Shown piece after piece: positions 4,993-29,859 of a stretch of DNA of 64,000 nucleotides. Under the pieces are notes generated by a model that searched no databases, was not told where the DNA came from, and saw only the letters and a list, made by a program, of their open reading frames with translations. The stretch comes from Paraphaeosphaeria minitans (taxonomy: Eukaryota; Ascomycota; Dothideomycetes; Pleosporales; Didymosphaeriaceae): positions 1,116,001 through 1,180,000 of the forward strand of contig WJXW01000011.1 of NCBI GenBank assembly GCA_015832175.1, written 5' to 3'. The position numbers were made by a program, and so were the translations under genes. Every line of letters starts with the position of its first letter. Position 1 is the stretch's first letter.

Positions 4993-7896
4993 AGTTTATA
5001 GTATAATTAAAACGCTGTTTTCTATTCTTTACCTTTCTTAATTTATATAAGGTGGTAACTATCCCTTAGATCTATTATTATAAATATTTTAGTTTAAGAT
5101 AGTTAATCTTGTAACTCTATAATATTTAGTAGTAGATATTAATTCTTTATTATTATATTATTAAGTTATTAGTAGTTAACGCATAGTCTATCTAATCTAT
5201 CCTTTTTCTAAATAAACATAAAAGGGCTTACTACTAGTAACTTTAATAATTATATATATCCTTTCTTAAGGTTTATCTTAATAAAATTACGTTCTTTAAA
5301 GAGTTCTTCTCCTGTCTTACTATATAGTAGTCTAAAGGGTGGCGTTTTCCTTTCTTCTAGGTCTATTATAAGATCCTAGGGTTAATATTTAAGTAGGTTT
5401 ACTTTTCCTTCTTTTTCTGTAAATATATATATCTATTTCCTATACTCTCTTAATAGAGTAAGAAATATACTATTATCCTTCTTTTCGCGCTTCTTAACCT
5501 AGTAGTTCCTACTAGCGTCTACTAAGGTGTGCTTCTATTTTTTAACTATCTATTGTAGTATTTTATTATTAATAACTCCCTTATTTACTATTATTTTTAG
5601 TTAATGCGTAGGCTTTACTTATAATGTATAATTATAGCATTTAAATAATATTTTCTTTATATTCTAGTTAATCTACAAGTTGTATATTATTAACTAAGGT
5701 AATTCTAAGACTAACTTATACTTAGATTCTAGTAAGATATCTAAGGTAAGTTCCTCTCTATATCCTTAGACTATTATTATAGTAGTAACCTCCTAGTATA
5801 TCTAAGGTGTCTTAGGCATTAGGAATCTATTCGCAATATAGATAATATAGGGTACTTCTTTCTCTAATATTATAAGTCCTACTAATCTTACTATTTAATA
5901 AGATATAAAGTTCCTTTCTACTTCTAAGTCTATAAGAGCTTAAGCCTATATTCCTTTAAGCTATACTAGTAGCTTAACTAATACTATACTTACTATAGTA
6001 TTTAATTTAATAAAGGCGTTTTCTTATCTAAGTTTAGGCCTAAAAAAGACATCTATTTGTATAGGTCGTAATTAAGTTTAGGTGCCTAGTATGCGTTTCT
6101 AAGCATCTACTTCTATTATTATTCTTAAGTATATAGCTTATATAGATTGTCTTCTTTTTCCTATAAAGATGTTCTACTATTTTTTCTCCTATAGTCTTTA
6201 CTATTCCTATATACTAGTTAAATTAGTAGTTCTATTGTTACTTCTTACATAGGGCAGTTTACAAAGCTGTCTAAATGTTTAGTTATATAGTAGTATTTAC
6301 AGTCTTAGTTTAGATACGTGTACTAGTATAGTTTTATACAGTCTCTGTTAATAAGTATATTATAGCATTTATTACCCTTTAGCGTAGGGTAAGGAAAGTA
6401 TTTTACTTATTATTTATTCTAGAGGTATTTATTACAGGCTGTAATAGGGTAGTCTATCTATATCTATCTATAGCGTAGTTTCCTTCTAGGTTGTTCCTTA
6501 TTTTTATCTTTCTCTATTTTATATTATGTGTATATTAGTTCTTTGCAATACATCTATATACAGAATTAGTATATAGGATTTTAGTAGTCTAGGTAGTACT
6601 TTAGTACGTAGTCTAATTCCTTATTTTTATAGGGTCGCATTCCTTTTAGTGCCTAGTAGGGTTCTATATAGTCCTAAACATTTAGTTTATACTTAGGTAA
6701 TATAGAGTTGTCATCTTTCTACTTACTTTATAGGTAAGGAGTAGGAGATCTTAGTATCTCTTCTACATCTTTTGCGTTATAGTATATATTAGAGTTGTCT
6801 TCTAGATCTTTATATAATTATAAGTTAGGTAAATCTAATTACTTACTTTGCTCTAGTGTAACGCGTTAGTAACTAAATAGCGTTATAATAACTTCCTATT
6901 CTTTATTAGGTTCTTAGTCCTTAATAATTAGTATATTTAACTTAGTTTAATAGACTTTATTCTTTAATCTATAGTTCCTAGCTATATAGCCTAGTTTACT
7001 ACATGTAAAGCATTTATAGGTCTTAGTTATTAGTTATTAACTTCTATTAGAAACGCGTTTATTAGGCTACTTAAGGCCTATCTTTTCTCCTTTTCTTTTG
7101 CCTATGTAGTTAAACTAGACATCTTCTATTAGTTTATATCTCTAGTAGTTCCTTAGCTATTGCTTTTACACAATTCTAACAGGGTTTTTATAAACTACTT
7201 TTACTAGTTATCTAAAGCTTATTACTCTAGGGTTTTAGTAGAGCTCTTATTATAGTGAAAACTATTCTCTATTAATTGTAATAGTTTCTTTATATAGTTC
7301 TTTAAAGTTAGTAATTTATATACTACTATGTAAGAGTTCCTTACGTAGTTTCTATTTAAGTTCTTATTTATATATATTCTAAAGAGATTTATTGTCCTAG
7401 TTAAGCTGCATAGTATATTTATAAAACTTAGCTATATATTTAGCTGCTAATTATTTCTACGTTATAGTCTAAATCTTTACTTTTGTAATAGAGTTCTTAT
7501 TAGTAATCCTAAAGAGTTATTTAAGGTATTTCTTAAAGTTATTATAATCTTTAATAATATTAACTATATTAGCGTGTTTATTTGCGTAATTGTTGTTATT
7601 ATTATTATAGTCTATTCCTAGGTACTTTTTAAGATAGAGATAGATCTATAATTCTATATCTCTTTGCATATATATTGCTACGAAGATAACCTTTTTCTTA
7701 TCTTTAAGAGGTTTGTCTAAGTTAAAGAAGTAGAGGTCTAACTAGAGAATCTAGATATTAGTTTAAAAGTGTTTACTAAAGTAGAGATTAGGTTTATACG
7801 CCTTACTACTATCTTTTATAGAAGTAATCTTAGCGGCACCTAAAGCTATAGAAGAGGTAGGAGTTTATAAAGTACTTATATTAAAGGTGTTTAAGA
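4993..7896 (-). pseudogene. Gypsy-1 gag, protease and start of RT (element A)
   Basis: Matches 26950-29859 of element D on the same strand. The gag zinc knuckle is at about 6985-7020: the first two Cys survive (CFTC), His reads Tyr and the last Cys reads Tyr, as expected for RIP. RT begins around 5350 and is cut at 4988 by H-prime. This is among the more heavily mutated Gypsy-1 copies; a 300-base sample (5041-5340) has only three TG and two CA. Confidence 0.75.
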
Positions 7897-10366: not shown

Positions 10367-10469
10367 ATGCCTACTAGTCGCAATAGTATAAAGCGTTATT
10401 ACAACTTTATCTTTAGTATTAAGAATTACAGTACTATTATAGTATCTAAGTGTTCTTTTTATAAGGCGT
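10367..10469 (+). pseudogene. Antisense Zn2Cys6-like ORF, N-terminal part (element D)
   Basis: Starts at an intact ATG (10367-10369), 37 bases inside the LTR edge, on the strand opposite to pol. It encodes 34 complete codons before element B interrupts codon 35 at the GGCGT target site. Codon 29 is TGT (first cluster Cys) and codon 32 is TAT (TGT after RIP). The frame resumes in phase at 17414. The same frame in element E starts with ATA (24620-24622), the RIP form of ATG. See the entries at 17414 and 24104. Confidence 0.6.
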
Positions 10470-10685
10470 TGTAAGGTCTAGTTATAGGCAATAGTACTTG
10501 CTTCACACTAGGAAGGACAGTGAAAGGACGACTCTAGTAATATTAATAGAATAATACTTGTCTTGTGTAGAGTTGGCATATAGCGTAGGTTTTACGCAGC
10601 TAGCTTACTTAGCGCATAGACTTTCTATAAGGCCTTAGCGCTAGATACTATAACACTATAATAATATTGTAATTTACCTATTATA
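10470..10685 (-). repeat. Gypsy-2 3-prime LTR of element B (216 bp)
   Basis: TGTAAGG to TTATA (ancestrally TGT to ACA). Its outer start retains CA and TG (for example CTTGCTTCACACTAGG), which the partner LTR at 17193 has lost. Other copies are 54098-54312 and the split solo LTR 18278-18486/25076-25082. Confidence 0.9.
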
Positions 10686-10763
10686 GAACCTCCCCCTCTA
10701 GTGATAGTCCTCTGCAGTATACTATAGCTTTAATAAAAACCTCACCCTATAAGAAAGGAAAAG

Positions 10764-11880
10764 AGTATTTATAGGTGTATATATTACGTACGTAATAATA
10801 GCGCGTTATAAGTAAATAGTGTATGTCGCAAATATATTATGTATATTATTTATTATAAGGCTCTTACGCCTTCTGTTTGCTGTAGTCTTCTATAATATAA
10901 GGTAGTAGAGCTATATAGTCTTAATGTTATCTTAATCTTTATGTACTTTCTACTTATATAATATATAAATAATATATTCTTAGCGTAGATAAAGCGCTTA
11001 ATTTTTAAATAACCTTCTTAATTATCTAAGATACTATACTACTTAGTGTCTAAGTATATTAAGAAGTCTAACCTATATAGTGCTACTACCTTTGCATTTA
11101 GTAGAGATACTAAGTGCGTAGACTATAATATAGTACTTACAACTTATATACGCTATATATAGAACTTAGTAAAGCTCTCTAAAAACTGTGTAAAAGATAA
11201 TAATAAGCGCTGTAACTATTATATTAAGGGTAATTGTAGAAGCTACAACTTAGTATATCTAAAGTTGTGCGCTATATATACGCTTTAGCTAATACTTATA
11301 GATACTAAAGGCAATAAATAGGCGCCTTAATCACCTCTACGCCCTTTACAACTGCTACTATATTATAGTTATAGAGACCCTAGGTAGGTAGCGCAAAATA
11401 GATAAGTATATAAAGGTAGTAGACCTAAAGCTAGCTTATTACTAAAAGTAATTTAACTTAGAGCTAGCTAACTACTAGTATATTACAGCTTATATTAGTA
11501 CACCTATAGGTGTAGTAACCTAGGCGCCTACTACTAGCCCTTAGTATCTAGGCTTAATCCTAGTAGAGTAGTGTTAGATTACTAATACTCTTAAGGTAGT
11601 TATTCCCTTTATATAGTAGATAGTAAGTTTACACCTTTCTTACACTTAAAATATATACTAATAACTTATTCTAGGTTAATCTAGCGTCTACTCCTTACTA
11701 TAATAAGGGTAATTTAAATAATAGTAATAAAGAGAGCAAAGAGGAGGTTACTACTAAAGGTATAGTAGGTAAAAATAGTAAGAATAGTAAAGATAATAAA
11801 AATAATAAGTAGTACAGGCGTAGATAGCGTGTAGTTTAGTTAGATCACTTCTTAGAAGCTAGCCTATAGGCCTTAAGTAA
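10764..11880 (+). pseudogene. Antisense frame in Gypsy-2 3-prime region (element B)
   Basis: On the strand opposite to pol, one frame from 10764 to about 11330 has roughly nine stops (all TAA/TAG) in about 190 codons; the next frame I compared carries about three times as many. In element C (minus, 54021 to 53456) the same frame is in register over 441 bases. Element C reads RCLRNNSAL then VNSAC, a C-x2-C-x12-C arrangement when combined with the Cys retained in B. Near 11205 it reads KRCNYY, then KGNC. A Lys/Glu/Asn/Ser-rich tail (11688-11880) in another frame matches element C at about 45600-45790, so a frameshift or intron may separate the parts. Function unknown. Confidence 0.45.
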
Positions 11881-11999
11881 ATACCCCTAATAAGCTATAA
11901 GTGCTCTATAAGCTATAGTACTCTATAATAATATATATTATATCTACGTTCTATGTGCTCTTATTATATCGTTTATTTTTTTTTTATATATACAGCTTT

Positions 12000-14900
12000 T
12001 TTCCCTTTAAAGGTTTAGACTAGGTTATCTATATCTTTAAAGTCTAACTCTAGAATCTAGGTATTCTAAGTGTTATTATAGCCTTTCTAGTAGAGTAGGT
12101 ATTACTTTTACCCCTTTTTTATTTACTTAGCTAGGATTTCTTCTACTTCCTAGGCTTCTCCTTTTTTAGGTATAACTTTTAGTAGCTAGGTGTTAATATC
12201 TTCTACTTCTAGCCTTAGTTTCTATTATTTAAAAAGGGAAATGTGAAACACGTTATAGATATAAAAGTGTAGTAAGAGGAGTAAGTAGTATGCCTATGTT
12301 CTAACTGCGTCCTATACTTAGAAGGGCCTAATAAATTTTCCTAATAGCTTTTTGCTTAGTTATTAAGATATATGTATATTCTTTATACTAAGTAGGACTA
12401 AGTTGTCTCTCTAGAATAACTCTTATTTATACTTCTTATTATAGTACTAGCTCTAATACTCTTATACTAAGTATAGGTGCTCTGTAAGTAATACGCGTAC
12501 GCTATGTATACGTTTTACTCTTTTAACTACATCTAGTAGCTTCCCCTCTAGCCTACTGTCTATAGGAGGCGTAGTAAGGATAGGGTACTTACTATATACT
12601 ATATAGAAAAGCGTTATTTTTGTTAAATTATAGATAGAGTTGTTATATATAAATTAAGCTATTAGGAGTAGTTTAATCTAGTTTATTTATAGAGGTGTAA
12701 TAAACATGTAAAGGTATTATTTAAGTATCTAATTCTAGCGCTCTGTTTACCTGTCTATTTAAGGGTAGAAAGCACTGCTAAGCCTACGCTTTACTTATAG
12801 TTAGTAGTATATTTCTGCCCAAAAAGTAGAGGTGAAGGTAGAGCCCTTATTAGATATAATACCTTTCTAAATACTAAACTTTAAGATAACCTCTTAGAAG
12901 TAGGCTTCTGCAAATTCCTTTACATCCTATATTTTTTATATAAAAATATAAATAGCTATCTTAGAGAAGTAGTATATAATTATAAATATTATATTAAAAG
13001 CGCAGCTGCCTTAATTCTTTACTAGTAGGAATCTAGTTATAAAGTCTAGTAAGACTTCCTTAAAGATATCCTTTAGCGTTAAAAGAGGTAATAGCTAGCT
13101 ATACTTACTATACCTTAGAGCTTTACTCTTTTAGTAAATAGTATAAGTTTTTACGTACTTCTAAACATCTTAACCTATAAGAGGCTAATAGTAGGTCCTC
13201 TTAATAGCCTTAAGCGTTCTATATACACTAAAGTAGCCTACTATGTATATATTATAGTGCTAGAACAAAATCTCTTACCTAATTACTAGTTTATCTAGGA
13301 TGTATAATCTGCTATTTTACTTTAGGACTACTATTTTATTAAGGCGCTATACTTACGCCTTACTACTACTTTAAGTGCTGCTTTTATACCTTAAGCTAGT
13401 AATACGCTTAATAGTAAAGGCGTCCCTTTACTAAAGCTACTAAACTTTAGTAATAAGGTTAGACTCTTTTATTATAAGTTTACTACTAACTAATACTTTA
13501 GTTAATAAGCGTAGTATATATAGCGTGCACACTATAGCACTAGTAGTAGTAATCTTTATAGCTTTATAAATATTAGTAATATATGTCTTACATACGCCTA
13601 ATAAGCTTAGCTTATTTATGGATTTGCTTACTCCACTATACTTAGTCCTTTACAGTCTTTTATTCTATAGGGTAGGTAATAAATAGGTTAGTAATAGGTT
13701 CTCTTATATATAATCTACCCTTCTTAATAGTCTATCCGCTAGGTTTGTTTTCCCTAGGTAGTGTTTCACTTTAAAATTAAAAGCTACTAGGTATATCGCC
13801 TATTATATTTATTATAGGTTTAGCTTTTATATAGCGCGTATACTGCGTAAGTTATTATAGTTACTTAGCACTTAAATTATATGCTACGTGCTCTCTAGAT
13901 AATATTTCTATTACTTAAAGTAGTAGATAATAGTAAGGAGCTTAAAGTTATATATTTTATAATTTAGCTCTATAGCTTAAAGCTTCCTTAATATAAAAGT
14001 AACTAGGTACTACTTTTAGTTCTTAAATAGCTATAAAAAGATACTATAAATTATAAAAGTAGATATATTAGTCTTTAATTAGATTAGTAGTGTAAGGTTA
14101 AAGTAGCGTAAAATAGGCGCACTTAAGAAGCGCGTTTTAAGTATTTTAAAAGTATTATTAGCTTTTACTAACTATTAGAACACTTAGTTCTTCTTAAGTA
14201 AGTCTAAAAGAGGAGCGGTTTCTTGCGTATATGCCTTAATAAATCGCCTATAAAAGTTTATAAAGCCTAGAAATAACTAGAGCTCTTAGATACTAGTTAG
14301 CTATAGCTATTCTATAATAGTTACTATGCGCGCAGGATTAGCGCGGATTCTTTATATAGTTATAATAAAACTAAGGAAGTAGACTTTACTCAATGCGAAT
14401 ATACACTTAGTTAAATTAATAAAACGTTTTGTCTTACGTAGTAATTTAAGCACAGCGTAGACAGCGCGCTAATAAAGTGTAAGATCCTTATTATAGGTAT
14501 AAATAAGTATATTATCTAGATACACAATGTATATGTAATTTAGGTATAGTGCTAGTGCCTTATTAATATATATCTAGAAGCTTATAAGGGTACTAGTTAA
14601 GCTAAATAGTATTACTAAGTATTTAAAGTGGCTATAGTAAGTTTAGAATATAGTTTTCTACTTATCTTTTACCTAGATCTAAATTCTGTAGTAGGCGTTG
14701 TAAAGTTTAAAGGTTATATAGTAGTATATACTTAATAGGCGGTTAAGCGTCTCTCTAACTAAGGGTAGTAAGTAATAATCCTTAATTATAATTGCGTTAA
14801 GGCCCTAATAATCTACGTAAAGCTGTAGTGTGCTATCTTTTATAGGGGTAAATAGAACTAGTGCTCTAGCTAGGCTAGTGCTATGCCTAATCTATCTTTT

Positions 14901-15292
14901 TTTTAAGGTATCTTCTAGATACTCCTAAAGTACCTTAAGCTCCTACTCTAAGAGATTATAGAGTAGTTTATAAAGAGGTTCCTTTCCCTCTATAATAGGG
15001 ATAGCATAATTAGATTCTTTAAAATTTAGTAGGGTAGACGCTGCTTTTTGTTAAATATATTACTATATTTGCGTAATATGTTAGGAATGTGTAGTACCTA
15101 CGCTGCGCGCGCTTTATTAATACACACTAGGTGCTCTAAGCTTACACTAGTTATTTATAAGACCTCTAGAAGAAATAAATTTAAGCTAGTATACTCTATG
15201 TTATCTTTAAAGTCCCTTGTAGTAACAAGCTATATTAAAGCTATAGTATAGCCCTAGCGCTATGTTTGTAAGCTATAATTAAGGTAGATATT
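12000..15292 (-). pseudogene. Gypsy-2 RT, RNase H, integrase and chromodomain (element B)
   Basis: Minus-strand pol remnant. The RT catalytic box reads YLDNILIY at about 14505-14530 (ancestral YLDD). Integrase lies about 12780-13660, with a GHFSVRRT-like zinc-binding segment and, toward its end, a TDGQTER-type block (intact reading in element C near 44700 is IDRQIER). A chromodomain lies about 12010-12180. RT is interrupted near its N-terminus by the solo LTR at 15293. Stops are at converted Gln/Trp codons. Confidence 0.78.
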
Positions 15293-15703
15293 TATTACAA
15301 ACCAGATAGTAATGTAGGAGTCGGGCGCTTATAAAGGTATAATAAAGCGACAATAGGGTTACAGGCGTAACAAAGAAATGCTAAGAGGCTTAGATTAGAT
15401 TACGTAATACGCTTAGCCGCTTAGGAGTCCTAAGTAGCTAAGTAGGTTACGTAATACGCTTAGTTACTTAGGAGTACTAAGTAGTAGAGTAGCCTTAGTA
15501 TATAGAAACGTAAGGATAGACCTCTATACTTATATTTAATCTATTTATTAATCTATTGTTTGGATTCTAGTAGACTAAATTGTTAACTTATTACACTTTA
15601 TTAAGATACTAACGTATTAATAAGACCTTCTACCTCCTGTAAGTACTCCTGCCTAAGAACTAACCTTAATCCTTTAGGACTAGCTACCCTCCTAGATTTA
15701 ACA
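15293..15703 (+). repeat. Solo Gypsy-1 LTR (411 bp)
   Basis: A complete LTR with no internal sequence, flanked by ATATT at 15288-15292 and 15704-15708, inserted in element B. U3 holds two dyads (CTTAGGAGTCCTAAG and a decayed second copy). It is the product of LTR-LTR recombination of a full element that had inserted here. Confidence 0.93.
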
Positions 15704-15708
15704 ATATT

Positions 15709-17192
15709 ACCTTCTTATAAGAAGGGGTTACTAAGTAAGAGAGGGATCCCTTCCTTATTAACGCTATAGATAGTAGTCTTTATCCTGCGCTCTACCCCTA
15801 TATTATTTATAATGCGCACTTAGAGCGTATAGGTAGCGTAGGTGCTTTACCTTTAGGCCCTAATCTATCTTAGTTTAGGGAGCTTAGCCCTTTTAATAGG
15901 CTTTAGATTTATTTTAATAGTAATAATCTAGCTAATTAGGCTAATATTAGCTTATAGGTTAAGAATTATTTAGAGTTCCCTCTTTAAGCCTATATCTCTA
16001 GCTACGCTACACGTGCGCTTTATGCCTAGTAAGATATAAATTAGTAGGCGCCTTACTATACTTAGGTTATAGGTAAGGCTTAGCCTTTTCCTATATAGTT
16101 TACTTATATAGGAATCTAGTTAGGATTACTACCTCTGTATTTATTAGTATAGTGGCTAGTTTTATAGCATTTATAGTAGGTAACACTTTTCTTATTTTAG
16201 GTCTTACTATTACTTTTAGATATTTAGTAGTTTAGCGTAGTATCCTTAGATTTCTTTAATATATAACGTAGGCTTAACTCCTACATTATAGGTGCGTAGT
16301 GTAGGTTTTACTTAAGCGTAGAGCCTAAAGTAATAAGGTCTTTCCTAGTTATAGGCACCTAATAGTAGTTAGTAATAGCCCTTTATAGCTTAGGTTTAAG
16401 CTTAGAAAAAAGGTACTACACCCTTTACTCTTTAGTATAAGGTGTAAGTTAATTTTTAAGAATATTAAAATAGGTTATAAAAGAGTAAATAGTTTAGTCT
16501 TTTTAATATATTACTTAAGTATACGCTATAGCTGCTTCTAGGCTGTAATTTACTAGGTCTAAAAGTAAGTTAAGTATATACTACTTAAAGGACTTCTAGG
16601 TAGGTGTTTCTCCTTTAGCTTTAAAGGTGCGCTTATAGTATATATACTATAGTTCTCTTAGGTCGCCTATAAGGTACTATATTATCTAGATAACTTTATT
16701 TCTATCCTACACAAATTCTTATAGTAAGAGGCGAAAGGCCACTTTATAAAAATAAAAGAATTTATAATGCTTTTTAAGGTTCTTACCTCTATATTTAGTA
16801 GGGTCTTTAGGTTAAAGCGCATGCTTAACGTATATTACTATATATACTATAGGCGCGTCCTACTTATATATATTAGTAGATAGAATTTTAATATGCTTAG
16901 TAGTAGCTGCTACGCTAGGGGTTTAGCTTATACTTTTAAGTTAGGAGATTTTATTTTCTAAAGTATAAAGTTAATATATAGCGTAAAGCTTATTACACTT
17001 CTTTTTAGTAACTAGGATATACTACTTAAATATTAAAAGTAGGCTTAAGTTACGTGTTACTAGCTCTCCTCCTATATACTAAGTAAAAGGGTCTTTACTA
17101 TCTTTAGGGGCTTTAAGTAAGGTCTACCCCCTACTAGTAGCTTATGTAACTCTAGGAGCTATTCTTAGACTATTATAGATAAAGTATTATTA
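15709..17192 (-). pseudogene. Gypsy-2 gag and protease region (element B)
   Basis: The reverse complement of 16100-16700 matches the plus-strand gag fragment of element G at 54313-54857. The zinc-knuckle region lies at about 16140-16200, and in G it reads a decayed C-x2-C-x4-H-x4-C. The remaining stretch toward 15709 should hold protease and the start of RT; I saw no preserved protease motif. Bases 17160-17192 next to the 5-prime LTR contain the primer site, whose primer I did not recognise. Confidence 0.65.
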
Positions 17193-17408
17193 TGTAAGGT
17201 CTAGTTATAGGCAATAGTACTTACTTTACACTAGAAAGGATAGTAAAAGAATAACTCTAGTAATATTAATAGAATAATACTTATCTTGTGTAGAGTTAGC
17301 ACGTAGCGTAGGTTTTACGCAGCTGGCTTACTTAGCGCATAGACCCTCTATAAGGCCTTGGCGCTAGATACCACAACACCACAACAATATTATAATCTAC
17401 CTGTTATA
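17193..17408 (-). repeat. Gypsy-2 5-prime LTR of element B (216 bp)
   Basis: Direct repeat of 10470-10685. The outer end keeps CCACAACACCACAACAATA where the inward partner has a fully TA-converted version. Confidence 0.92.
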
Positions 17409-17413
17409 GGCGT

Positions 17414-17823
17414 ATTCTTATGTGTGTAAGATCTATATTAGCTTAGGAAAGTGTAGTAAGTGTTAGAAATAAAAATTAAAGTGCGATATAGCTATTACTT
17501 AAAATAAGTTCTTATAGTTAGTATTTAAAAAAAAGAAGTTAGAGGCGTAAATATTAAAAGTGTGTAAAAAATAGGGTACTGGGTTTAAGGCACTACGTAT
17601 AGTATATATAAAAGAAAAGCGGTTATTAAAATAGTTAGCGCAGAATAAAAAGTGTACTAGAGAGGTAATTGTAGTAAAAAGTGCTACACTAATAGAGTTA
17701 GAGGAGGATCTAGTTTAGCCTACTTAGCCTATAGATCTTGTAGAGCTTAGTACATCTATTTAGTTAATAATAAATAATCTTTCTCTAGAGTTCTAGGATA
17801 ACTCTGTAACTCTACCTTCTTAG
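17414..17823 (+). pseudogene. Antisense Zn2Cys6-like ORF, main part (element D)
   Basis: Continues the frame begun at 10367. The joined length is 513 nt, 171 codons with stop. Cluster positions here: codon 39 TGT, 48 TGT, 51 TGT, 58 TGC; with codons 29 (TGT) and 32 (TAT) upstream this gives C-x2-C-x6-C-x8-C-x2-C-x6-C, one position decayed. A Lys/Glu-rich segment follows (KKKKLEA), then an acidic ELEEDL. Relative to element E it lacks exactly two codons, so the frame is kept. It ends TAG at 17821-17823. Stops inside the frame are TAA/TAG as left by RIP. Confidence 0.62.
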
Positions 17824-18277
17824 GTAAAAATAATATTATATTATGTTAGGTATTTACAAAATTCCTTAATCTTTTATTAATAGTTTCTTAAGTAGGCTAC
17901 TAGTTTCTAAGTGTTTTCGCTTTATAAGTAACCTTTCTATTTAATAAGATATATTTTGTTTTACTAATTATAGTCTAGAATTTTTTTAATTTTAAATTTA
18001 TTTTCTTCCTTAGCTTAGTAGTAGAAGGTTGTCTTAATTAGAGTATTAGGGTCTGCTAGTTCTAGTAATAATATATAGAATACTAGGTGTATCTTCGCGT
18101 TAGCTAGTAGTTCTAGTTTATAGTTTACTAGTAAGATTTATTTAGAAATATAAAATAGTCTAACTTTAATATAATCTAGTTTCTTGTGTTTCTTCTTCTA
18201 AGTTTAAAGGTTCTTTATAAGTAGATATACTTTATCCCCCTTCTTTAGCTAAGGTGCTATTTTTTGTTTTTAGTTTT
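17824..18277 (-). pseudogene. Gypsy-1 integrase C-terminus and chromodomain (element D)
   Basis: Reverse complement of element E 23660-24110. Clear shared stretches include the one reading ATAGCACCTTAGCTAAAGAA on the sense strand. It is cut at the GTTTT target site (18273-18277) by the split solo Gypsy-2 LTR and continues at 25088. Confidence 0.8.
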
Positions 18278-18486
18278 AGTAACGGGTAGATCACGATATT
18301 GTTGTGGTGTTGTGGTATCTAGCGCTAAGGCCTTATAGAGGGTCTGTGCGCTAAGCGAGCTAGCTGCGCAAAACCTACGCTGCGCGTTAACTCGATATAA
18401 GACAAGTATTATTCTATTAATATTACTAGAGTTATCCTTTTACTGTCCTTCCTGGTGTAAAGTAAATACTATTGCCTATAACTAGA

Positions 18487-18897
18487 TGTTACGTACCAGA
18501 TAACAATGTGGGACTCGGGCGCTTATAAAGGTGTGATGGAATAGCAACAGGGTTATAAACGTAATAAAGAGACGCCAAGCAACTTAGATTAGGTTACGTA
18601 ATGTGCTTAGTTACTTAGTAGCACTAAGTAGTAGAGCAGGTCACGTAAAGTGCTTAGTTACTTAGTGGCACTAAGCAGCGGAGCAGCCTTAGTATATAGG
18701 AACGTAAGAATAGGCTCTCTATACTTATGTTTAATCTATTTATTAATCTATTGTTTAGATTCTAGTAGACCAAATTGTTAACTTATTACACTTTACAAGA
18801 TACTATTGTATTAACAAGACCTTCTACCTTCTATAAGTACTCCTGCCTAAGAACTAACCTTAACTCTTTAGGACTAGCTACCCTCTTAGATTTAACA
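18487..18897 (+). repeat. Gypsy-1 5-prime LTR of element E
   Basis: TGTTACG to TTTAACA. U3 carries two copies of a dyad about 47 bp apart: CTTAGTAGCACTAAG at 18614-18628 and CTTAGTGGCACTAAG at 18661-18675. The first 70 bases keep GTGGGACTCGGG, which reads ATAGAACTTAGG in the inward LTR at 24660. Confidence 0.95.
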
Positions 18898-20500
18898 TCT
18901 TAAACACCTTTAATATAAGTACTTCACAAACTCCTACCTCTTCTACAGCTTTAGGTGCCGCTAAGATTACTCCTATAAAGGATAGTAGTAAGGCGCATAA
19001 ACCTAATCTCTACTTTAGTAAACGATCTTAAACTAACGTCTAGATTCTCTAGTTAGACCTCTACTTCTTTAACTTAGACAAACTTCTTAAAGACAAAAAG
19101 AAAGTTATCTTTACAGCAATATACATGCGAGAAGATAAAGGATTATAGATCTATCCTTACCTTAAAAAGTACCTAGGAATAGACTACAACAACAATAATA
19201 ACAATTACGCAAATAAGCACGCTAATACAGTTAATATTATTAAGGATTATAATAACTTTAAGAAATGCCTTAAACAACGCTTTAGGATTACTAACAAGAA
19301 CTCTATTACAAAAGTAAAGATTTAGACTATAACTTAGAAATAATTAGTAGCTAAGTATATAGCTAAGTTTCGCAGATACGCTGTGCAACTTAACTAGGAC
19401 AATAAATCTCTTTAGGACATGTATAAACAAGGACTTAAATAGAAACTATGTAAGGAACTTCTGCGTAGTAGTGCGCTAATTACTAACCTTAAAGAACTAT
19501 ATAAAGAAACTATTAGGATTAACAGAGAGTGGTTTTTATTATAATAGGAACTCCACTAAAACCCTAAGGCGATAAGCTTTAGATAACCAGTAAAAGTAGT
19601 TTATAAGAACTCTGTCAGAATTGTCTAAAAGTAATAGCTAAGGAACTACTAGAAATACAAACTAATAGAAGATGTCTAGTTTAACTACTTAGGCAAAGGA
19701 AAAGGAGGAAAAATAGGCCCTAAGTAGCCTAATAAACGCGTTTCTAATAGAAGTTAATAACTAATAACTAAGACCTGTAAATGCTTTATATGTGGCAAAC
19801 TAGGCCACATAGCCAGGAACTATAGATTAAAGAACAAAGTCTATTAAACTAAGTTAAATGTACTAACTATTAAGGACTAAGAACCTAATAAGGAATAGGA
19901 AGTTATTATAACACTATTTAGTTACTAATACGTTACACTAGAGCAAAGTGAGCAATTAGATTTACCTAACTTATAACTATATAAAGATCTAGAAAACGAC
20001 TCTAACGTATACCACAACGCAGAAAACGTAGAAGAGATACTAAAATCTCCTACTCCTTACCTACAAAGTAGGCGGGAAGAAGACAACCCTATGTCACCTA
20101 AGTATAAACTAAATGTTTAGGACTATATAGAACCCTACTAGGCACTAAAAGGAATACAACCCTATAAAAATAAGAAGTTAGACTACGTACTAAAGTACTA
20201 CCTAGACTACTAAAATCCTACACACTAATTCTGTATATAGACGCATTGCGAAGAACCAACATGCATATAACACAAGATAGAGAAAAAGGAGAACAAGAAA
20301 TAACCTAAAAGGAAACTACGCTATAGATAGATATAGATAGACTACCCTATTGCAGCTTACAACAAACACCTCTAGGATAAATAATAAGTAAAATACTTTC
20401 CTTACCTTACGCTAAAGGGCAATAAATGCTATAATATACTTATTAATAGAGACTATATGTAATTATACTAGTACATATGTCTAAACTAAGACTATAAATA
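18898..20500 (+). pseudogene. Gypsy-1 gag with CCHC zinc knuckle (element E)
   Basis: Begins just inside the LTR; bases 18898-18908 (TCTTAAACACC) occupy the primer-binding position and are conserved in D. The zinc knuckle at about 19780-19830 reads CFICGKLGHIARNY: Cys, Cys and His are present and the final Cys is Tyr (TGT to TAT). Upstream, Lys/Leu/Gln-rich capsid-like sequence is interrupted by TAG/TAA only at likely Gln or Trp codons. Nucleocapsid packaging of element RNA is the family role. Confidence 0.8.
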
Positions 20501-23500
20501 CTACTATATAGCTAAACACTTAAACGGCTTTGCAAACTGCCCTATATAAGAAGTAATAACAGAACTACTAATTTAACTAGTACACAGAAACAGTGAAGAC
20601 TATAGGAGAAAAAACAGAAGAACATTCTTATAGAAAGAAGAAAAAGACAATCTATATAAGCTACATACTTAAGAATAATAATAGAAGCGGATACTTAGAA
20701 ACGCATACTAGGCACTAGAACTTAACTATAACCTACACAAATAGATGTCTTTTTTAGGCCTAAACTTAGACAAGAAAACGCCTTTATTAAATTAAATACT
20801 ATAGTAAGTATAGTATTAGTTAAGCTACTAGTACAGCTTAAAGGAATATAAGCTTAAGCTCTTATAGACTTAGGAGTAGGAAGGAACTTTATATTTTATT
20901 AGACAGTAAGATAAGTAGGACTTATAATATTAGAGAAAGAAGTACCCTATATTGTCTATATTGCGAATAGATCCCTAATGCCTAAGACACCTTAAATATA
21001 CTAGGAGGTTACTACCACAATAATAGTCTAAGAATATAGAGAGGAACTTACCTTAGATGTCTTACTAGAATCTAAGTATAAGTTAGTCTTAGGATTACCT
21101 TAGTTAATAATACACAACCCACAGATTAACTAGGGTACAAAGAAAATATTATTTAAACGCTATAATTATGCATTATAAGCAAAGCCTACGCATTAACTAA
21201 AAATAATAGTAGATAAGGGAGTTATTAACAATATAATACTGCGACAGATAGTTAAAAAATAGAAATACACCTTAGCAGACGCTAGTAGGAACTACTAGAT
21301 TAAGAAGCGCAAGAAGGAGGACAACAGTACACCTCTCACCTTACTAAGAGAGTACAGGAAATAGATACACATATTTACAGAAAAAGAAGGAAAAGCAAAC
21401 CTACTAGAATATTAACCCTAGGATCTTATAATAGACTTAGAAGAAGGGAAAACGCCACCCTTTAAACTACTATATAGTAAGATAGGAGAAGAACTCCTTA
21501 AAGAACATGATTTTATTAAGACAAACCTTAAGAAAGGATATATATAACTATTAAAGTTACTAGCAGTAAGCCCTTTTATATTTGTTAAGAAAAAGGATAG
21601 ATTAGACAGACTATGTATTAACTACTAATAACTTAATAATATAACAATAAAGAACTAATATCTACTACTAAACATTATAGAGTTACAAGATTAACTATCT
21701 TAAGCTAAGATATTTATAATAATAGATCTAAGAGACAGTTACCACCTTATATAAATTAAGAAAAGTAAAGAATAGAAAACAGCGTTTTAATCACGCTATA
21801 GACTATTTAAGTATAAGGTTATACTATTTAGACTTACAAATACACTAGTAGCTTTTATAGCACTTATTAACAACGTACTCTATAAACATCTAGATATATT
21901 TATTATCGCGTATATAAACAATATCCTCGTCTTTTTTAAAAACAAATTAGACTACACTAAGCATATATAGACAGTGCTAGAAGCACTAGATAAAGCATGC
22001 CTTTGCATTAAACTTAAGAAATGTAAGTTTAACGTTAAATAACTCAAATTCCTAGGACATATTATTACTACAGAAGGAATTAAGATAGCACTAAGTAAAG
22101 TTAAATACATTAAGAACTAGCTAATACTAAAGACAGCTAAGAATATCTAAGAATTTTTAGGATTCTATGGATTTAACTAACAATTTATCCAAGATTACGC
22201 AAAGGTTATAATACCTTTAATAAATTTTATAAAGAAGGACGTACCCTTTAAATAGACAGATAAGTGCAGAATGTTATTCTAACTCCTTAAGACAGTATAT
22301 ATTATAGAACCTGTCCTTATTTATTTTAGAAGCAATAAACCACTGCGCTTTAAAACAGACGCTAGTAATCTTACGCTAGGCGCCTACGCTAAATAAGAAT
22401 ATAACAGTAAATAGCACCTAATTGCCTATTACTTATACAAATTTAATAACGCCAAAACATAATATAATATATATAATAAAGAACTTTACGCTATTATTAA
22501 AGCCTTAAAGCACTAAAGGATCTACGCGCTTAGTTACTTAACGCTAGAAATCTACACAGATTATAAGAACCTTCTAAAGTTCACAATAACAAAAGAACTT
22601 ACGCCACAATAACAAAGATGGTTATAAACTACTAGGCAGTATAAGTGTAAAATCATCTATATAGCTAGGAAAGAAAATAGCAGAGCAGACGCTCTTAGCT
22701 AACAAAGTAATCTAGTAAAAGAAAAGGCAAAAACCTTCTTTTTAATCCTTTGTAAAGCTAAAGATAGATCTCTAGAGCCAATAGTAGAACTAAATTAACT
22801 TTTAGTAATTAACTAAGAAGTTTTAGAACATCTACAGACTAAGATCATCCGATAATACCACAATAACCCTATATATAGACACCTAGGTATCACAAAAACA
22901 ATAGAACTTATCTAGAGGAATTACACCTTTAAAAGAATTAAGGAAGCTATAACAACTTACATCCACAAATATATAGAATACTAGAGAAACAAATATAGCA
23001 CACATCTTAAATATAGAGAGATATAAGTAATTAGAATACTAATAGCACTATAGGAAGACATCGCTATAGATTTTGTTATAGGAATTCTAAACTCTAAGGA
23101 TCTAACAACAGGAATTAAATACAACAGTATACTAGTAATAGTCTACTAACTAACTAAGTATGTTAAGCTCATTCTATGTCTTAGAAGAATAATAGTAAAA
23201 GAACTTGCTTTTTTTATCCTAGACTAACTAGTTAGACACTATAGAATCCTAAAAATAATTATTAGCGACAGAGACAAGCTCTTTACGTTAAATTATTAAA
23301 CAACGCTTATAGCACTACTTAGAATAAAACAAAAACTATTAACAGCTTACTATCTATAAACAGACAGATAGATAGAACGTACAAACTAAACTATAGAAAC
23401 GTACCTACGCATCTACTACAACAGTTAGAAAAATAACTAGGTTTTATTACTACCTATAGTATAGTTAGCCTATAATAATAAAGTATTAGCAGCATTAAGA

Positions 23501-24115
23501 CATACACCGTTCTATACAAACTATAGAAAACACCCACATCTCTTTAATTAACAATTTCCTACAATAATTAAAGCAAAAGAAGCTATAGATATAGCAGAAA
23601 ATATAAAGAAAATACACTAACAACTCTAAAAGAATCTTAAGAAAGCTTAGTAGTAATTAATTTTATACTAAAACTAAAAACAAAAAATAGCACCTTAGCT
23701 AAAGAAGGGGGATAAAGCATATCTACTTACAAAGAACCTTTAAACTTAGAAGAAGAAACACAAGAAACTAAATTATATTAAGGTTAGACTATTTTACATT
23801 TCTAAGCAAATATTACTAGTAAACTATAAGTTAGAACTACCGCTAAATGCAAAGATACACCTAGTATTCTATGTATCACTACTAGAACTAGCAGACCCTA
23901 ATACACTAGTTAAAACCACCTTCTACCACTAGACTAAGGAAGAAAATAAATTTAAGGTTAAAAGAATTCTAGAATATAATTAGCATAACAACACGTACCT
24001 TATTAAGTAGAAAGGTTACCCACACAGCGAAAATACTTAGGAACTAAGGAACTACCTAGGAAACTATTAATAAAAGATTAAAGAATTCTATTAATAGACT
24101 TACCTAAGACAGTAA
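20501..24115 (+). pseudogene. Gypsy-1 pol: protease, RT, RNase H, integrase, chromodomain
   Basis: Protease: ALIDLGV near 20859-20880 (active-site DSG now DLG). RT: VKKKDRLDRLCINY from about 21580, catalytic YLDD now YINN at 21911-21922, so both metal-binding Asp are lost. RNase H: FKTDASNLTLGAYA near 22350-22395, catalytic Asp kept. Integrase: HLGITK zinc-binding start near 22877, AIDFVIGIL near 23062, SDRDKLF near 23265, TDRQIERTN near 23360-23385. Chromodomain about 23940-24100 (FKVKRILEYN, then KGYPHSENT), which in chromoviruses steers integration to heterochromatin. It ends CAG-TAA (stop 24113-24115), overlapping the tail of the antisense ORF by 12 bases. Confidence 0.88.
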
Positions 24116-24622
24116 TACTAAAGAATTATCCTAGAACTTAGGAGGTAGGTTGTTCATCGCTAACTATATAGACGTACTAAGTTTAGCTAGACTAGTAGGC
24201 TAAGTAGGATAAGCTAGATCCTCCTCTAACTCTAGCTCTGCTAGAGTAGCACTCTCTACTATAATAACCTTACTAGCACGCTTCTTATTCTATACTAACT
24301 ATTTTGCTAACTAATCCTCTTTTGCACGCGCTACATATAGGGCCTTAAATACTATATCCTATTCCTTTTACGCCTTTAATATTTGCGCCTCTAACTTCTT
24401 CTTCTTAGTAATTAACTGCGAGAACTTATTCCTAGTAACAGCTATATTACACTTTAAGCCTTGTTTCTAACACTTACTACACTTCCCTAAGCTAATGTAG
24501 ACTTTGTAAACGCAAAAGTGTAACTTATAGAAAAAGTACTTTAACACTATAACTACTCTATAGTTTTTAATAGTAAAGATAAGGTTGTAATAACGCTTTG
24601 TAGAATTATAGTTAGCAGGTAT
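24104..24622 (-). pseudogene. Antisense Zn2Cys6-like ORF (element E, 172 codons)
   Basis: Read on the strand opposite to pol, from ATA (24620-24622; ATG in element D) to a stop at 24104-24106, exactly 173 codons with no frameshift. Cluster positions are codons 29, 32, 39, 48, 51 and 58: TAC, TAT, TAC, TGT, TGT, TGT. With element D this gives C-x2-C-x6-C-x8-C-x2-C-x6-C, the spacing of Gal4-type Zn(II)2Cys6 DNA-binding domains. Residues about 60-135 are Lys/Glu/Leu-rich and probably coiled coil; then an acidic LAELELEEDL. About nine in-frame TAA/TAG remain from RIP. It starts 38 bases from the 3-prime LTR, so antisense transcription from the LTR could reach it (inference). Alternative: another cysteine-pair protein, not a DNA binder. 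Confidence 0.65.
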
Positions 24623-24659
24623 AATTCTTTAGAACAAAGAATAGAAAGAGAGGGGATAA

Positions 24660-25070
24660 TATTACGTACTAGATAACAATATAGAACTTAGGCGCTTATA
24701 AAGGTGTGATAGAACAGCGACAGGGTTATAAATGTAATAAAGAGACGCTAAGCAACTTAGATTAGGTTACGTAATGTGCTTAGTTACTTAGTAGCACTAA
24801 GTAGTAGAGTAGGTTACGTAAAGTACTCAGTTACTTAGTAGCACTAAGTAGCGGAGTAGCCTTAGTATATAGGAACGCAAGGATAGGCTCTCTATACTTG
24901 TGTTTAATCTATTTATTAATCTATTGTTTAGATTCTAGCAGACTAAATTGTTAACTTATTACACTTTGCAAGATACTATTATATTAACAAGACTTTCTAC
25001 CTTCTATAAGTACTCCTGCCTAAGAACCAACCTTAACCCTTTAGGACTAGCTACCCTCTTGGATTTAACA
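24660..25070 (+). repeat. Gypsy-1 3-prime LTR of element E
   Basis: 411-bp direct repeat of 18487-18897. The inward start is more mutated (TATTACG) and the outward end less mutated (CTTGGATTTAACA) than the partner. Preceded by a purine-rich tract at 24645-24659. Confidence 0.95.
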
Positions 25071-25087
25071 CTAGACCTTACAGTTTT

Positions 25088-28000
25088 AGTATAAAATTAA
25101 TTACTGCTAAGTTTTTTTAAGGTTCTCTTAGAGTTGTTAGTGTATTTTCTTTATATTTTCTACTATATCTATAGCTTCTTTTGCTTTAATTGTTGTAGAA
25201 AATTATTAATTAAAGAGATGTAGGTGTTTTCTATAGTTTATATAGAATAGTGTATGTCCTAATACTGCTAATACTTTGTTATTATAGGCTAACTATGCTA
25301 TAGGTAGTAATAAATTCTAGTTATTCTTTTAACTATTATAGTAGATGCGTAGGTACGTTTCTATAGTTTAGTTCGTACGTTCTATCTGTCTACCTATTTA
25401 TAGATAGTAAGCTATTAATAGCTTTTATTTTATTCTAAGTAGGGCTATAAGTATTGTCTAGTAATTTAACGTAAAGAGCTTGTCTCTGTTACTAATAATT
25501 ATTTTTAGAATTTTATAATATCTAATTAGTTAGTCTAAAATAAAAAAAGCGAGGTCTTTTACTTTTATTCTTTAAAGGTATAGAATAAGCTTAATATACT
25601 TAGTTAGTTAGTAGACTATTACTAGTATACTATTATATTTAATTCCTGTTATTAGATGCTTAGAGTTTAGAATTCCTATAATAAAATCTTTAGTAATGTC
25701 TTTTTATAGTGCTGTTAGTATTCTAATTGCTTATATCTCTCTATATCTAAAATATGTACTGTGTTTATTTCTCTAGCATTCTACACATTTATAGATATAA
25801 GTTGTTACAGCTTCTTTAATTCCTTTAAAGATGTAATGTCTTTAAATAAGTTCTATTGTCTTTGTAATACCTAGGTGTTTATATATAGGGTTATTATAGT
25901 ATTATTGCATAATCTTAGTCTGTAGGTGTTCTAGAACTTCTTAATTAATTACTAAAAGTTAATTTAGTTCTACTATTAGTTCTAGAGATCTATCTTTAGC
26001 TTTGCAAAGGATTATAAAGAAGGTTTTTACTTTTTCTTCTACTAGATTACTTTATTAGCTAAGAGCATTTGCTCTACTATTTTCTTTTCTAGCTATATAG
26101 ATAATTTTAAACTTATACTACCTAGTAGTCTACAACTATCTTTATTGTTATAGGGTAAGTTCTTTTGTTATTGTGAACCTTAGAAGGCTTTTATAATCTA
26201 TATAGATTTCTAGCGTTAAGTAACTAAGTGTATAAATCCTCTAGTGCTTTAAGGCTTTAATAATAGCGTAGAGTTCTTTTTTATATATATTATATTGTGT
26301 TTTAGCGTTATTAAACTTATATAAGTAGTAGGTAATTAAGTGCTATTTACTATTACGTTCTTATTTAGCGTAGGCGCCTAGCGTAAGATCACTAGCGTCT
26401 GTTTTAAAGCGTAGTAGTTTATTATTTCTAAAATAAACAAAGATAGGTTTTATAATATAGGCTATCTTAAGGAGTTGGAATAACATTCTACACTTATTTG
26501 TCTATTTAAAAGGTACGTTCTTCTTTATAAGATTTATTAAAGGTATTATAACCTTTATGTAATTTTAGATAAACTATTAGTTAAATCTATAGAATTCTAA
26601 GAATTCTTAGATATTCTTAGCTGTCTTTAGTATTGGCTAGTTCTTAATATATTTAACTTTACTTAGTGCTATTTTAATTCCTTCTATAGTAATAATGTGT
26701 CCTAGGAATTTAAGTTATTTAACGTTAAAATTACATTTCTTAAGTTTAATATAAAGGCATACTTTATCTAGTGCTTCTAATACTATCTGTACGTGTTTAG
26801 TGTAGTTAGATTTGTTTTTAGAAAAGATAAGGATATTATTTATATATATAATAATAAATATGTCTAGATGTTTGCAGAGTATATTATTAATAAGTGCTAT
26901 AAAAGCTGCTAGTGCATTTGTGAGTCTGAATAGCATAACCTTATATTTAAATAGTCTATAGTGTAATTAAAACGCTATTTTCTATTCTTTACCTTTCTTA
27001 ATTTGTATAAGGTAATAACCGTCCCTTAGATCTATTATTATAAATATCTTAGCTTAAGATAGTTAGTCTTGTAACTTTATAATATTTAGTAGTAGATATT
27101 AGTGCTTTATTATTATATTATTAAGTTGTTAGTAGTTAACGTATAGTCTATCTAATCTATCCTTTTTCTTAATAAACATAAAAGGGCTTACTACTAGTAA
27201 CTTTAATAGTTATATATATTCTTTCTTAAGGTTTATCTTAATAAAATTACGTTCTTTAAGGAGTTCTTCTCTTATTTTACTATATAGTAGTCTAAAGGGT
27301 AGCGTCTTCCCTTCTTCTAGGTCTATCGTAAGATCCTAGGGGCAATATTCTAGTAGGTTTACTTTTCCTTCCTTCTCTATAAATATATATATCTATTTCC
27401 TATACTTTCTTAGTAAGGTAAGGAGTATACTATTATCCTCTTTTTTACGCTTCTTAACCTAGTAGTTTCTACTAGCGTCTACTAAGGTGTACTTCTATTT
27501 TTTAATTATCTATTGTAGTATTCTATTATTAATAACTCCCTTATCTACTATTATTTTTAGTTAATACGTAGGCTTTACTTATAATATATAATTATAGTGT
27601 TTAAATAATATTTTCTTTGTACCCTAGTTAATTTGCGGGTTATATATTATTAACTAAAGTAATTCTAAGACTAACTTATACTTAGATTCTAGTAAGATAT
27701 CTAAGGTAAGTTCCTCTCTATATTCTTAAATTATTATTGTAGTAGTAACCTCTTAGTATATCTAAGGTCTCTTAGGCATTAGGGATCTATTCGCAATATA
27801 GATAATATAGAGTACTTTTTTCTCTAGTATTATAAGTCTTACTTGTCTTACTATCTAATAAGATATAAAGTTCTTTCCTACTTTTAAGTCTATAAGAGTT
27901 TAAGCCTATATTCCTTTAAGCTGTACTAGTAGCTTAACTAATACTATACTTACTATAGTATTTAATTTAATAAAGGCGTTTTCTTATCTAAGTTTAGGCC

Positions 28001-28100
28001 TAGAAAAGACTTCTATTTATATAAGTTATAATTAAGTTTAAGTGCCTAGTATAAGTTTCTAAGCATCTGCTTCTGTTATTATTCTTAAGTATATAGCTTA
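25088..28100 (-). pseudogene. Gypsy-1 pol (element D)
   Basis: Continues D after the split solo LTR. Integrase 25088-26000, RNase H about 26050-26450, RT about 26600-27300, protease about 27880-27910. A run of 73 codons without a stop (26936 to 26715) is the RT core, with LFRLTN and YINNILIF, the latter being YLDD converted to YINN. A 300-base sample, 25141-25440, holds 13 TG and no CA on the plus strand, so nearly all surviving target dinucleotides are CA on the element sense strand. Not functional. Confidence 0.85.
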
Positions 28101-29859
28101 TATAGATCGTCCTTTTCTTCTTCTTACGAAAATATTCTGCTATTTTTCCTCTTACAGTCTTTACTATTCCTATATACTAGTTAGATTAGTAGTTCTATTA
28201 TTACTTCTTACATAGGGCAGTTTACAAAGCTATTTAAATGTTTAGCTATATAGTAGTATTTATAGTCTTAGTTTAAACATATATACTAGTATAGTTATAT
28301 ATAGTCTCTATTAATAAGTATATTACAGTATTTATTGCCCTTTAGCGTAAGGTAAGGAAAGTCTTTTACTTATTATTTATCTTAGAGGTGTTTATTATAA
28401 GCTGCGATAGAGTAGTCTATCTATATTTATCTATAGCACAGTTTCTTTTTAGGTTATTTCTTATTCTCTTTTTTCTCTATTTTATATTATATGTATATTG
28501 GTTCTTCGCAGTGCGTTCACTTATAGAATTAGTGTATAGGATTTTAGTAGTCTAGGTAGTACTTTAGTATGTAGTCTAATTCCTTATTTTTATAGGGTCG
28601 CATTCCTTTTAGTGCCTAGTGGGGTTCTATATAGTCCTAAATATTTAGTTTATACTTAGGTAACATAGGGTTATCTTCTTCCCGCCTACTTTGTAGGTAA
28701 GAAGTAGGAGATCTTAGTATCTCTTCTATACCTTTAGCGTTATAGTATGTATTAGAGTTATCTTCTAGATCTTTGTATAATTGTAAGTTAGGTAAATCTA
28801 ATTACTTACTTTATTCTAGTATAACGCGTTAGTAACTAAATAGCGTTATAATAACTTTTTATTCCTTATTAGGTTTCTAGTCCTTAATAGTTAGTACATT
28901 TAACTTAGTTTAATAGACTTTATTCTTTAATCTATAGTTCCTAGCTATATAGCCTAGTTTGCTATATGTAAAGCATTTATAGGTCTTAGTTGTTAGTTAT
29001 TAACTTTTATTAAAAATGCGTTTATTAGACTATTTAGGGCCTATCCTTCCTCCTTTTCCTTTACTTATATAGTTAAACTAGATATCTTCTATTAGTTTAT
29101 ATCTCTAGTAGTTCCTTAGCTATTACTTTTAAATAATTCTAATAGGGTTCTTCTAAACCACTTTTGCTACTTATCTAAAGCTTATTACTTTAGGGTTTTA
29201 GTAAAGCTCTTATTACAGTAAAAACTATTCTTTATTAATCCTAATAGTTTCTTTATATAGTTCTTTAAGATTAGTAATTAGCGCACTACTATATAGGAGT
29301 TCCTTACGTAGTTTCTATTTAAGTTCTTATTTGTATATATCCTAAAGAGATTTATTGTCCTAGTTAAGTTACACAGCGTATCTATAAAACTTAACTATAT
29401 ACTTAGCTACTAATTATTTTTAAGTTATAGTCTAAATCTTTACTGTTGTAATAGAGTCCTTATTAGCAATTTAAAAGAGTTATTTAAGGCATTTCTTAAA
29501 GTTATTATAATCCTTAATAACATTAACTATATTAGCGTGCTTATTTACGTAATTATTGTTATTATTATTATAGTCTATTCCTAGATACTTTTTAAGGTAA
29601 AGATAGATCTATAATCCTACATCTCCTCATATATATATTACTACAAAGTAACCTTTTTCTTATCTTTAAGGAATTTGTCTTAAGTTAAAGAAGTAGAGGT
29701 CTAACTAGAGAATCTAGACATTAGTTTAAGATTATTCGCTAAAGTAGAGATTAGGTTTATACACTTTACTACTATCCTTTATAGGAGTAATTTTAGCGGC
29801 ACCTAAAGCTGTAGAAGAGGTAGAAGTTTATAAAGTACTTATATTAAGGGTGTTTAAGA
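28101..29859 (-). pseudogene. Gypsy-1 gag (element D)
   Basis: Matches element E 18898-20600 in reverse complement. The zinc knuckle lies at about 28945-28990, with Cys positions decayed. Heavily interrupted by RIP stops. It ends at the 5-prime LTR, next to the conserved primer-position sequence. Confidence 0.75.

Follow-up and report, generated by a model that had tools for sequence, protein, structure and literature searches.

The window analysed here, the 64,000 nucleotides at C11:1116001-1180000 of contig WJXW01000011.1 from the fungus Paraphaeosphaeria minitans, contains a complete copy of a chromovirus (Ty3/Gypsy) on its plus strand (18487..25070, 6584 bp), mutated by repeat-induced point mutation (RIP). 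On the minus strand, between the decayed pol gene of this element (20606..24115) and its 3′ long terminal repeat (LTR), lies a decayed antisense gene (24104..24622) whose product is predicted to be a Zn2Cys6-like coiled-coil protein. Its copies and homologues establish that the gene exists, that it holds this place in two element families within a single genome, that its product has six cysteines and that the protein is under selection; a real, selected gene is practically certain. The explanation we favor, with a confidence that is reasonable though far from complete, is that a lineage of fungal chromoviruses carries a true accessory gene in antisense orientation, with pol on one side and the 3′ LTR on the other, whose product would act as an autoregulator of the LTR.

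The antisense gene, recognized by its frame, homology and selection, comprises 173 codons in the window including the terminal TAG, begins at ATA and contains nine internal stops, and is therefore not open in this copy; no open reading frame of at least 150 amino acids starting at ATG, GTG or TTG is present in the window. Among the six frames of the region it has the fewest stops, 10 with the terminal one versus 13, 19, 21, 23 and 24. An earlier note had placed a 173-codon minus-strand frame tail-to-tail with pol, overlapping the pol stop by 12 bases, and both features hold (pol TAA at 24113-24115), as does the closeness of the frame to the 3′ LTR, where the claimed spacing of 38 bases proved to be 37, counted to the first T of the LTR at 24660. 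The codons that it had singled out, which span the six-cysteine cluster (codons 29-58, 24449..24538, minus strand), were found as described: codons 29, 32, 39, 48, 51 and 58 read TAC, TAT, TAC, TGT, TGT and TGT in this copy and TGT, TAT, TGT, TGT, TGT and TGC in element D. By its codons, element D is the inverted copy that a nested insertion has divided in two; its antisense gene occupies 10367..10468 (plus strand, codons 1-34) and, beyond the insertion, 17410..17820 (plus strand, codons 34-170).

An annotated homologue, P0001 (PMIN01_12119, P. minitans), matches the window frame over its full length (E 3.2e-53) and was found at 100% identity on contig C15 of the same 47.45-Mb genome, within an un-RIPed relative of the element (locus L031, C15:1224500-1234499). 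There the antisense frame runs uninterrupted between two stops (183 amino acids) and includes a start, MPADR; it ends in a stop that overlaps the stop of the adjoining open pol by 4 nucleotides. The gag product of this locus carries a CCHC knuckle, and its pol, 68% identical to the window pol (tblastn, residues 4-1163), matches Pfam protease, reverse transcriptase, RNase H, integrase and chromodomain families (PF00385, E 2.9e-16). Aligned to this copy, the nine internal stops of the window frame fall at TGG (4), CAG (2), CGG, CAA and CGT codons; six are accounted for by a single RIP-type transition and one by two, while the remaining two (CAA, CGT) need another change as well. Across 29 RIPed copies, 285 of 289 in-frame stops lie where the un-RIPed copy has a CAR, CGN or TGG codon. 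That copy belongs to another subfamily (purine/pyrimidine, R/Y, distance 0.056 from the window copy) and therefore serves as a comparison and not as an ancestor.

When P0001 was searched against its own genome, all 150 scored places, among 338 candidates, matched; the C15 copy is the only one of these without an internal stop. The earlier note had named frameshifts in a consensus as a sign against the gene: in individual copies, as opposed to a consensus, the frame is intact at the un-RIPed locus, and for the greater part of the 150 matches a single reading frame spans nearly the whole length of the gene. A second homologue, P0016 (47% identical to P0001), likewise matched 150 of 150 scored places, among 364 candidates, 14 of which coincide with the P0001 list by a count made by eye. 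The genome thus holds two diverged element families with many copies each, these counts being lower bounds. We examined the 30 best loci of the P0001 list (family 1) and 20 of the first 22 loci of the P0016 list (family 2), from which the C15 locus and one shorter match were excluded. Among the family-1 loci, 29 of 30 have the end of an opposite-strand pol within 100 nucleotides of the end of the antisense gene; in family 2 the distance, by match ends, is 3 nucleotides in 19 of 20 loci. No opposite-strand pol match was found beside the frame at L024 and L081. The six cysteine codons are exclusively TGY or TAY in family 1 (180/180 cells, all six positions in each of the 30 copies), so that each is either cysteine or the RIP-type tyrosine, more than chance would give. 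In family 2, 119/120 cells are TGY or TAY and one reads TAA.

Because RIP makes transitions only, R/Y state is blind to it. The R/Y-variable sites of the 30 family-1 copies are distributed as 14, 4 and 34 over antisense codon positions 1, 2 and 3 (168 sites each). The synonymous fraction in the antisense frame is 0.471 for all 52 sites and 0.683 for the 30 sites with a minor count of at least 2, versus 0.165 expected in both cases, values reached in 0 of 20000 permutations each; since the sites share a family tree, these counts serve for orientation and should not be read as exact probabilities. The flanking 500 nucleotides on the LTR side gave a flat 31/33/32 (25 of 30 copies kept), whereas pol displayed a third-position excess of 78 versus 61 and 59 (26 of 30 copies kept), or 17 versus 8 and 7 at a minor count of at least 2. 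Between the families R/Y differences lean slightly toward the third position (42/33/47 of 167 each); within family 2 such sites are too few (4/1/1). Thus, reached without a consensus, the purifying selection on which the earlier note had made its reading depend is present: the antisense frame is selected at the amino-acid level, and R/Y coding is able to read selection through heavy RIP.

Could the frame be a chance opening or a by-product of sense coding? One of the five other frames, the sense frame that shares its third positions, is also enriched in synonymous sites (0.356 vs 0.197, 45/20000 permutations; 0.383 and 148/20000 at the 30 sites with a minor count of at least 2), which speaks for such a by-product. 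However, in the un-RIPed copy two stops interrupt that frame, whereas the antisense frame is open, and the synonymous excess is strongest in the antisense frame among all six; together with the 280 homologues of the antisense protein at E ≤ 0.001 (120 of them listed), this leaves the chance explanation a negligible probability. Alternatively, the antisense RNA and not the protein might act, damping the element as double-stranded RNA with the sense transcript. Fungi possess RNA silencing, which speaks for such a route, and the available text of a review of plant antisense open reading frames (aORFs) keeps the option open (PMC7264820). Selection on amino acids, seen in a synonymous R/Y excess that is strongest in this frame, and the retention of the six cysteines at 42-54% protein identity to P0001 argue against it, and we consider it quite improbable.

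The search with P0001 returned 22 homologues, and the alignment of these retrieved the 280 mentioned above; 122 proteins (P0001-P0122) were aligned. The spacing C-x2-C-x6-C-x8-C-x2-C-x6-C is exact in 117 of the 122, and 94 of 122 contain no cysteine beyond the six. A non-cysteine ancestry of these positions, the other sign against the gene that the earlier note had named, finds no support in the family, again without a consensus: of the 121 homologues that extend over these positions, 118 have cysteine at all six. The proteins share a plan (~170-200 amino acids) of an N-terminal helix, the six-cysteine cluster, a long predicted helix and a short conserved C-terminal tail with a nearly invariant tryptophan. 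Named sources among the homologues listed are few in total, P. minitans and Hortaea werneckii (P0110), and the UniRef name of the annotated open copy begins "Zn(2)-C6 fungal-type". By eye, the longest contig measures 6.0-7.9 kb, roughly the length of a single element, in 31 of the 120 listed homologues, a hint that these sit in such elements too and that the tail-to-tail layout extends beyond P. minitans. No relatives were confirmed in viral and prokaryote-genome collections (42 and 64 pattern matches). Five entries (P0024, P0057, P0063, P0069 and P0070) bear the source label galactokinase, apparently a false one.

Gal4-type binuclear clusters are spaced C-x2-C-x6-C-x5-12-C-x2-C-x6-8-C, and the homologue family conforms to this spacing. 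The AlphaFold model of P0001 contains helices 30-35 and 49-54, each beginning inside a C-x2-C, followed by a helix at 64-132, in keeping with the coiled coil that the earlier note had expected after the cluster; transferred to the window, and therefore with approximate limits, this long helix corresponds to 24227..24433 (minus strand, codons 64-132). The model of P0016 follows the same pattern, so that the predicted fold has the two-helix cluster of the Gal4-type family. In Foldseek searches of PDB chains, both of the two matches to P0001 are Zn2Cys6 proteins (Pho7 in each case), as are 10 of 11 matches to P0016 (Pho7, Hap1, Gal4, Ppr1), all of them weak; a second look at the 25 best chains found Zn2Cys6 proteins in 12 of 14 listed rows for P0001 and 9 of 10 for P0016. 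Superposition of the model cluster on the Leu3, Put3, Ppr1 and Gal4 DNA-binding domains gave 1.4-1.8 Å over 33-35 residues. These models strongly suggest a binuclear-cluster fold and a coiled-coil dimer, and a Zn2Cys6-like fold is very probable.

Sequence profiles, the check that the earlier note had proposed, came out otherwise, so that of its Gal4-type assignment the spacing and the predicted fold stand and the profile similarity does not. The Pfam Zn_clus (PF00172) cut-off was not reached, with 26 of 122 members matching at E ≤ 10 (best E 0.06) and a best score of 13.9 bits against a cut-off of 21 in a re-scan of ten members; hhalign against host Zn_clus domains gave 32% over 12 columns, no better than cysteine-preserving shuffles, and 0.3% in global mode. 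All of these results weigh against a Gal4-type regulator. Where alignments were visible, the weak Zn_clus matches fall on the six-cysteine region. Precomputed Pfam domains were absent from the listed homologues, PDB sequence searches returned chance-level matches only (best E 0.33 and 0.11), and NCBIfam gave weak matches only (best E 0.0049, far under the cut-off). Since the Zn_clus cut-off was not reached, we call the protein Zn2Cys6-like.

The weak link to Zn_clus would also suit a zinc-structured protein that is not a transcription factor, for instance a nucleic-acid chaperone, a nuclear-import adaptor or a targeting partner of cDNA or integrase working as a coiled-coil dimer, and roles in nuclear steps have been proposed for retroviral and plant aORF proteins in the available text of PMC7264820. 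We judge this unlikely, although it carries more than token weight: the model cluster superposes on four DNA-binding domains, and gag already supplies a CCHC knuckle. A DNA-binding regulator is the probable role of the protein.

A candidate target is present in the LTRs. The two un-RIPed C15 LTRs have differing U3 parts, yet TCACGTGA occurs in each, and in both, half-sites of the form CTGAKC cluster in both orientations directly upstream of TATATA. One U3 contains 5 in 167 nucleotides (1 of 500 shuffles had as many) and the other 8 in 340 nucleotides, including some flank outside the LTR (0 of 500 shuffles), counts that do not amount to a test because the motif was chosen after the sequences had been seen. 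The un-RIPed LTR repeat of L031 combines TCACGTGA with GCTCAG-type half-sites, and its RIPed form is the 47-bp tandem repeat in the U3 of the window element (24758..24859, no strand; matching array at 18591-18686). The simplest proposal is a dimer that reads the inverted half-sites; host factors could use the same sites. In the LTR regions compared (L031:1-503 and 6278-7832), the two LTRs of L031 differ in U3 type and are 94% alike in their last 229 bases, and the 3′ LTR holds an insertion of ~1.1 kb with a TGAT run; the element looks like a recombinant of two families.

According to the autoregulator model, the antisense transcript would start on the side of the 3′ LTR and cross the pyrimidine-rich strand opposite the polypurine tract; its product would enter the nucleus, bind inverted half-sites in the U3 of the element's own LTR and tune sense transcription, much as a minimal Gal4-type factor would. 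That the own LTR is the main target falls a little short of an even chance. Instead, the main effect of the protein might be on genes of the host or on how the element is silenced, comparable to the action of HBZ on host transcription, and Zn2Cys6 proteins are indeed a large class of host regulators (144 PF00172 matches among 150 candidates scored). Conservation within the element lineage and the half-site clusters in its own U3 fit self-control at least equally well, and we regard a mainly host-directed role as improbable.

The 5′ LTR (18487..18897, plus strand) and 3′ LTR (24660..25070, plus strand) of the element in the window, each 411 bp and delimited by LTR comparison, differ at 30 sites, all 30 of them transitions, and CTAGA flanks the element on both sides (18482-18486 and 25071-25075). 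With the domains taken from L031, the order protease, reverse transcriptase, RNase H and integrase in pol, the C-terminal chromodomain, the LTRs and the target duplication identify a chromovirus. The antisense frame occupies the gap between pol and the polypurine tract (24640..24659, plus strand, from sequence reading), the pyrimidine-rich complement of which directly precedes the antisense start as a leader, an arrangement shared by L031, and the 3′ LTR is the proposed source and putative promoter of the antisense transcript. GC content is 25-35% in the window (1-kb steps) versus 41-54% in the un-RIPed C15 stretch (500-base steps).

In element D, pol (17823-18290, minus strand) again stands tail-to-tail with the antisense gene, inside which sits the nested element (10469-17409) with 217-bp direct end repeats (10470-10686 and 17193-17409). 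A second, inverted pol copy (25077-28160, minus strand) begins directly past the 3′ LTR and matches residues 1-1027 only. A tRNA scan of the window was empty. Elsewhere, L008 and L027 have R/Y distances intermediate between the two family-1 subfamilies (0.028/0.028 and 0.033/0.022), as in mosaics, and an open frame at L031:8929-9999 (minus strand) resembles a pogo/Tigger-type DDE transposase.

The protein resembles Gal4-type factors such as Hap1, Leu3, Put3 and Pho7 in the spacing of its six cysteines, in a cluster followed by a helix or coiled coil and in its predicted fold, but is much smaller and retroelement-borne, and differs in the lack of profile-level similarity, in the eight-residue loop between the two halves of the cluster and in the absence of an R-x-R-K-x-K module. 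Boty-like Gypsy elements of Botrytis cinerea were reportedly described by Zhao and colleagues in 2011 as carrying an antisense gene, brtn. HBZ, to whose antisense gene in human T-cell leukaemia virus type 1 (HTLV-1) the earlier note had likened the layout, is a bZIP protein, in contrast to the six-cysteine cluster found here, and no bZIP family is among the 25 listed of 128 matched Pfam families. The two cases share a retroelement whose antisense gene is read from the 3′ side; on the HBZ side, as far as the text of PMC11963269 goes, the product is nuclear.

The aORFs of Boty, Grande and Retand are, by analogy of layout, closer. In the available text of PMC7264820, the stretch from pol to the 3′ LTR carries an antisense gene in Grande, RIRE2, Retand and PvRetro13 of plants and in Boty of Botrytis and Sclerotinia, and the function of these genes is given as not known. 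Boty, whose brtn is also treated in PMC8365987, PMC4227169 and PMC5987419, shares with our element a fungal chromodomain Gypsy body with an additional antisense gene in this position; compared by description only, it differs in that the available parts of PMC7264820, PMC8365987 and PMC4227169 mention no zinc cluster in the brtn product. Grande (gene23), RIRE2 and Retand keep their antisense gene in most copies, the Grande product is nuclear and the Retand product, TRP28, is a predicted DNA binder (PMC7264820 and PMC11963269, both in part). These plant elements encode other protein domains, and Retand is described as a non-chromovirus with 2.9-6.6 kb from pol to the 3′ LTR, versus ~0.54 kb here. 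Titles and abstract openings of the literature searched, with subscription journals mostly outside, name no Zn2Cys6 antisense gene in a retrotransposon. Since the antisense layout is known and the available text of these sources mentions no zinc cluster for such products, the gene encodes, within the literature searched, a new kind of product.

In the parts of the literature consulted, antisense genes of LTR elements in plants and in Boty are without a settled function. The product described here combines an architecture like that of DNA-binding proteins with a strong sign of selection and a candidate target, which opens the function of these genes to direct tests on one small protein. Our results suggest that these jumping elements bring along their own regulator, and that fungal genomes carry retroelement-borne regulators. 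Tentatively, and at somewhat less than even probability, a widespread fungal chromovirus family may encode its own dimeric Zn2Cys6 regulator that reads inverted half-site arrays in the LTR U3; if so, this would be a self-contained retroelement control circuit, evolved in parallel to retroviral antisense regulators and built on the favorite transcription-factor type of fungi.
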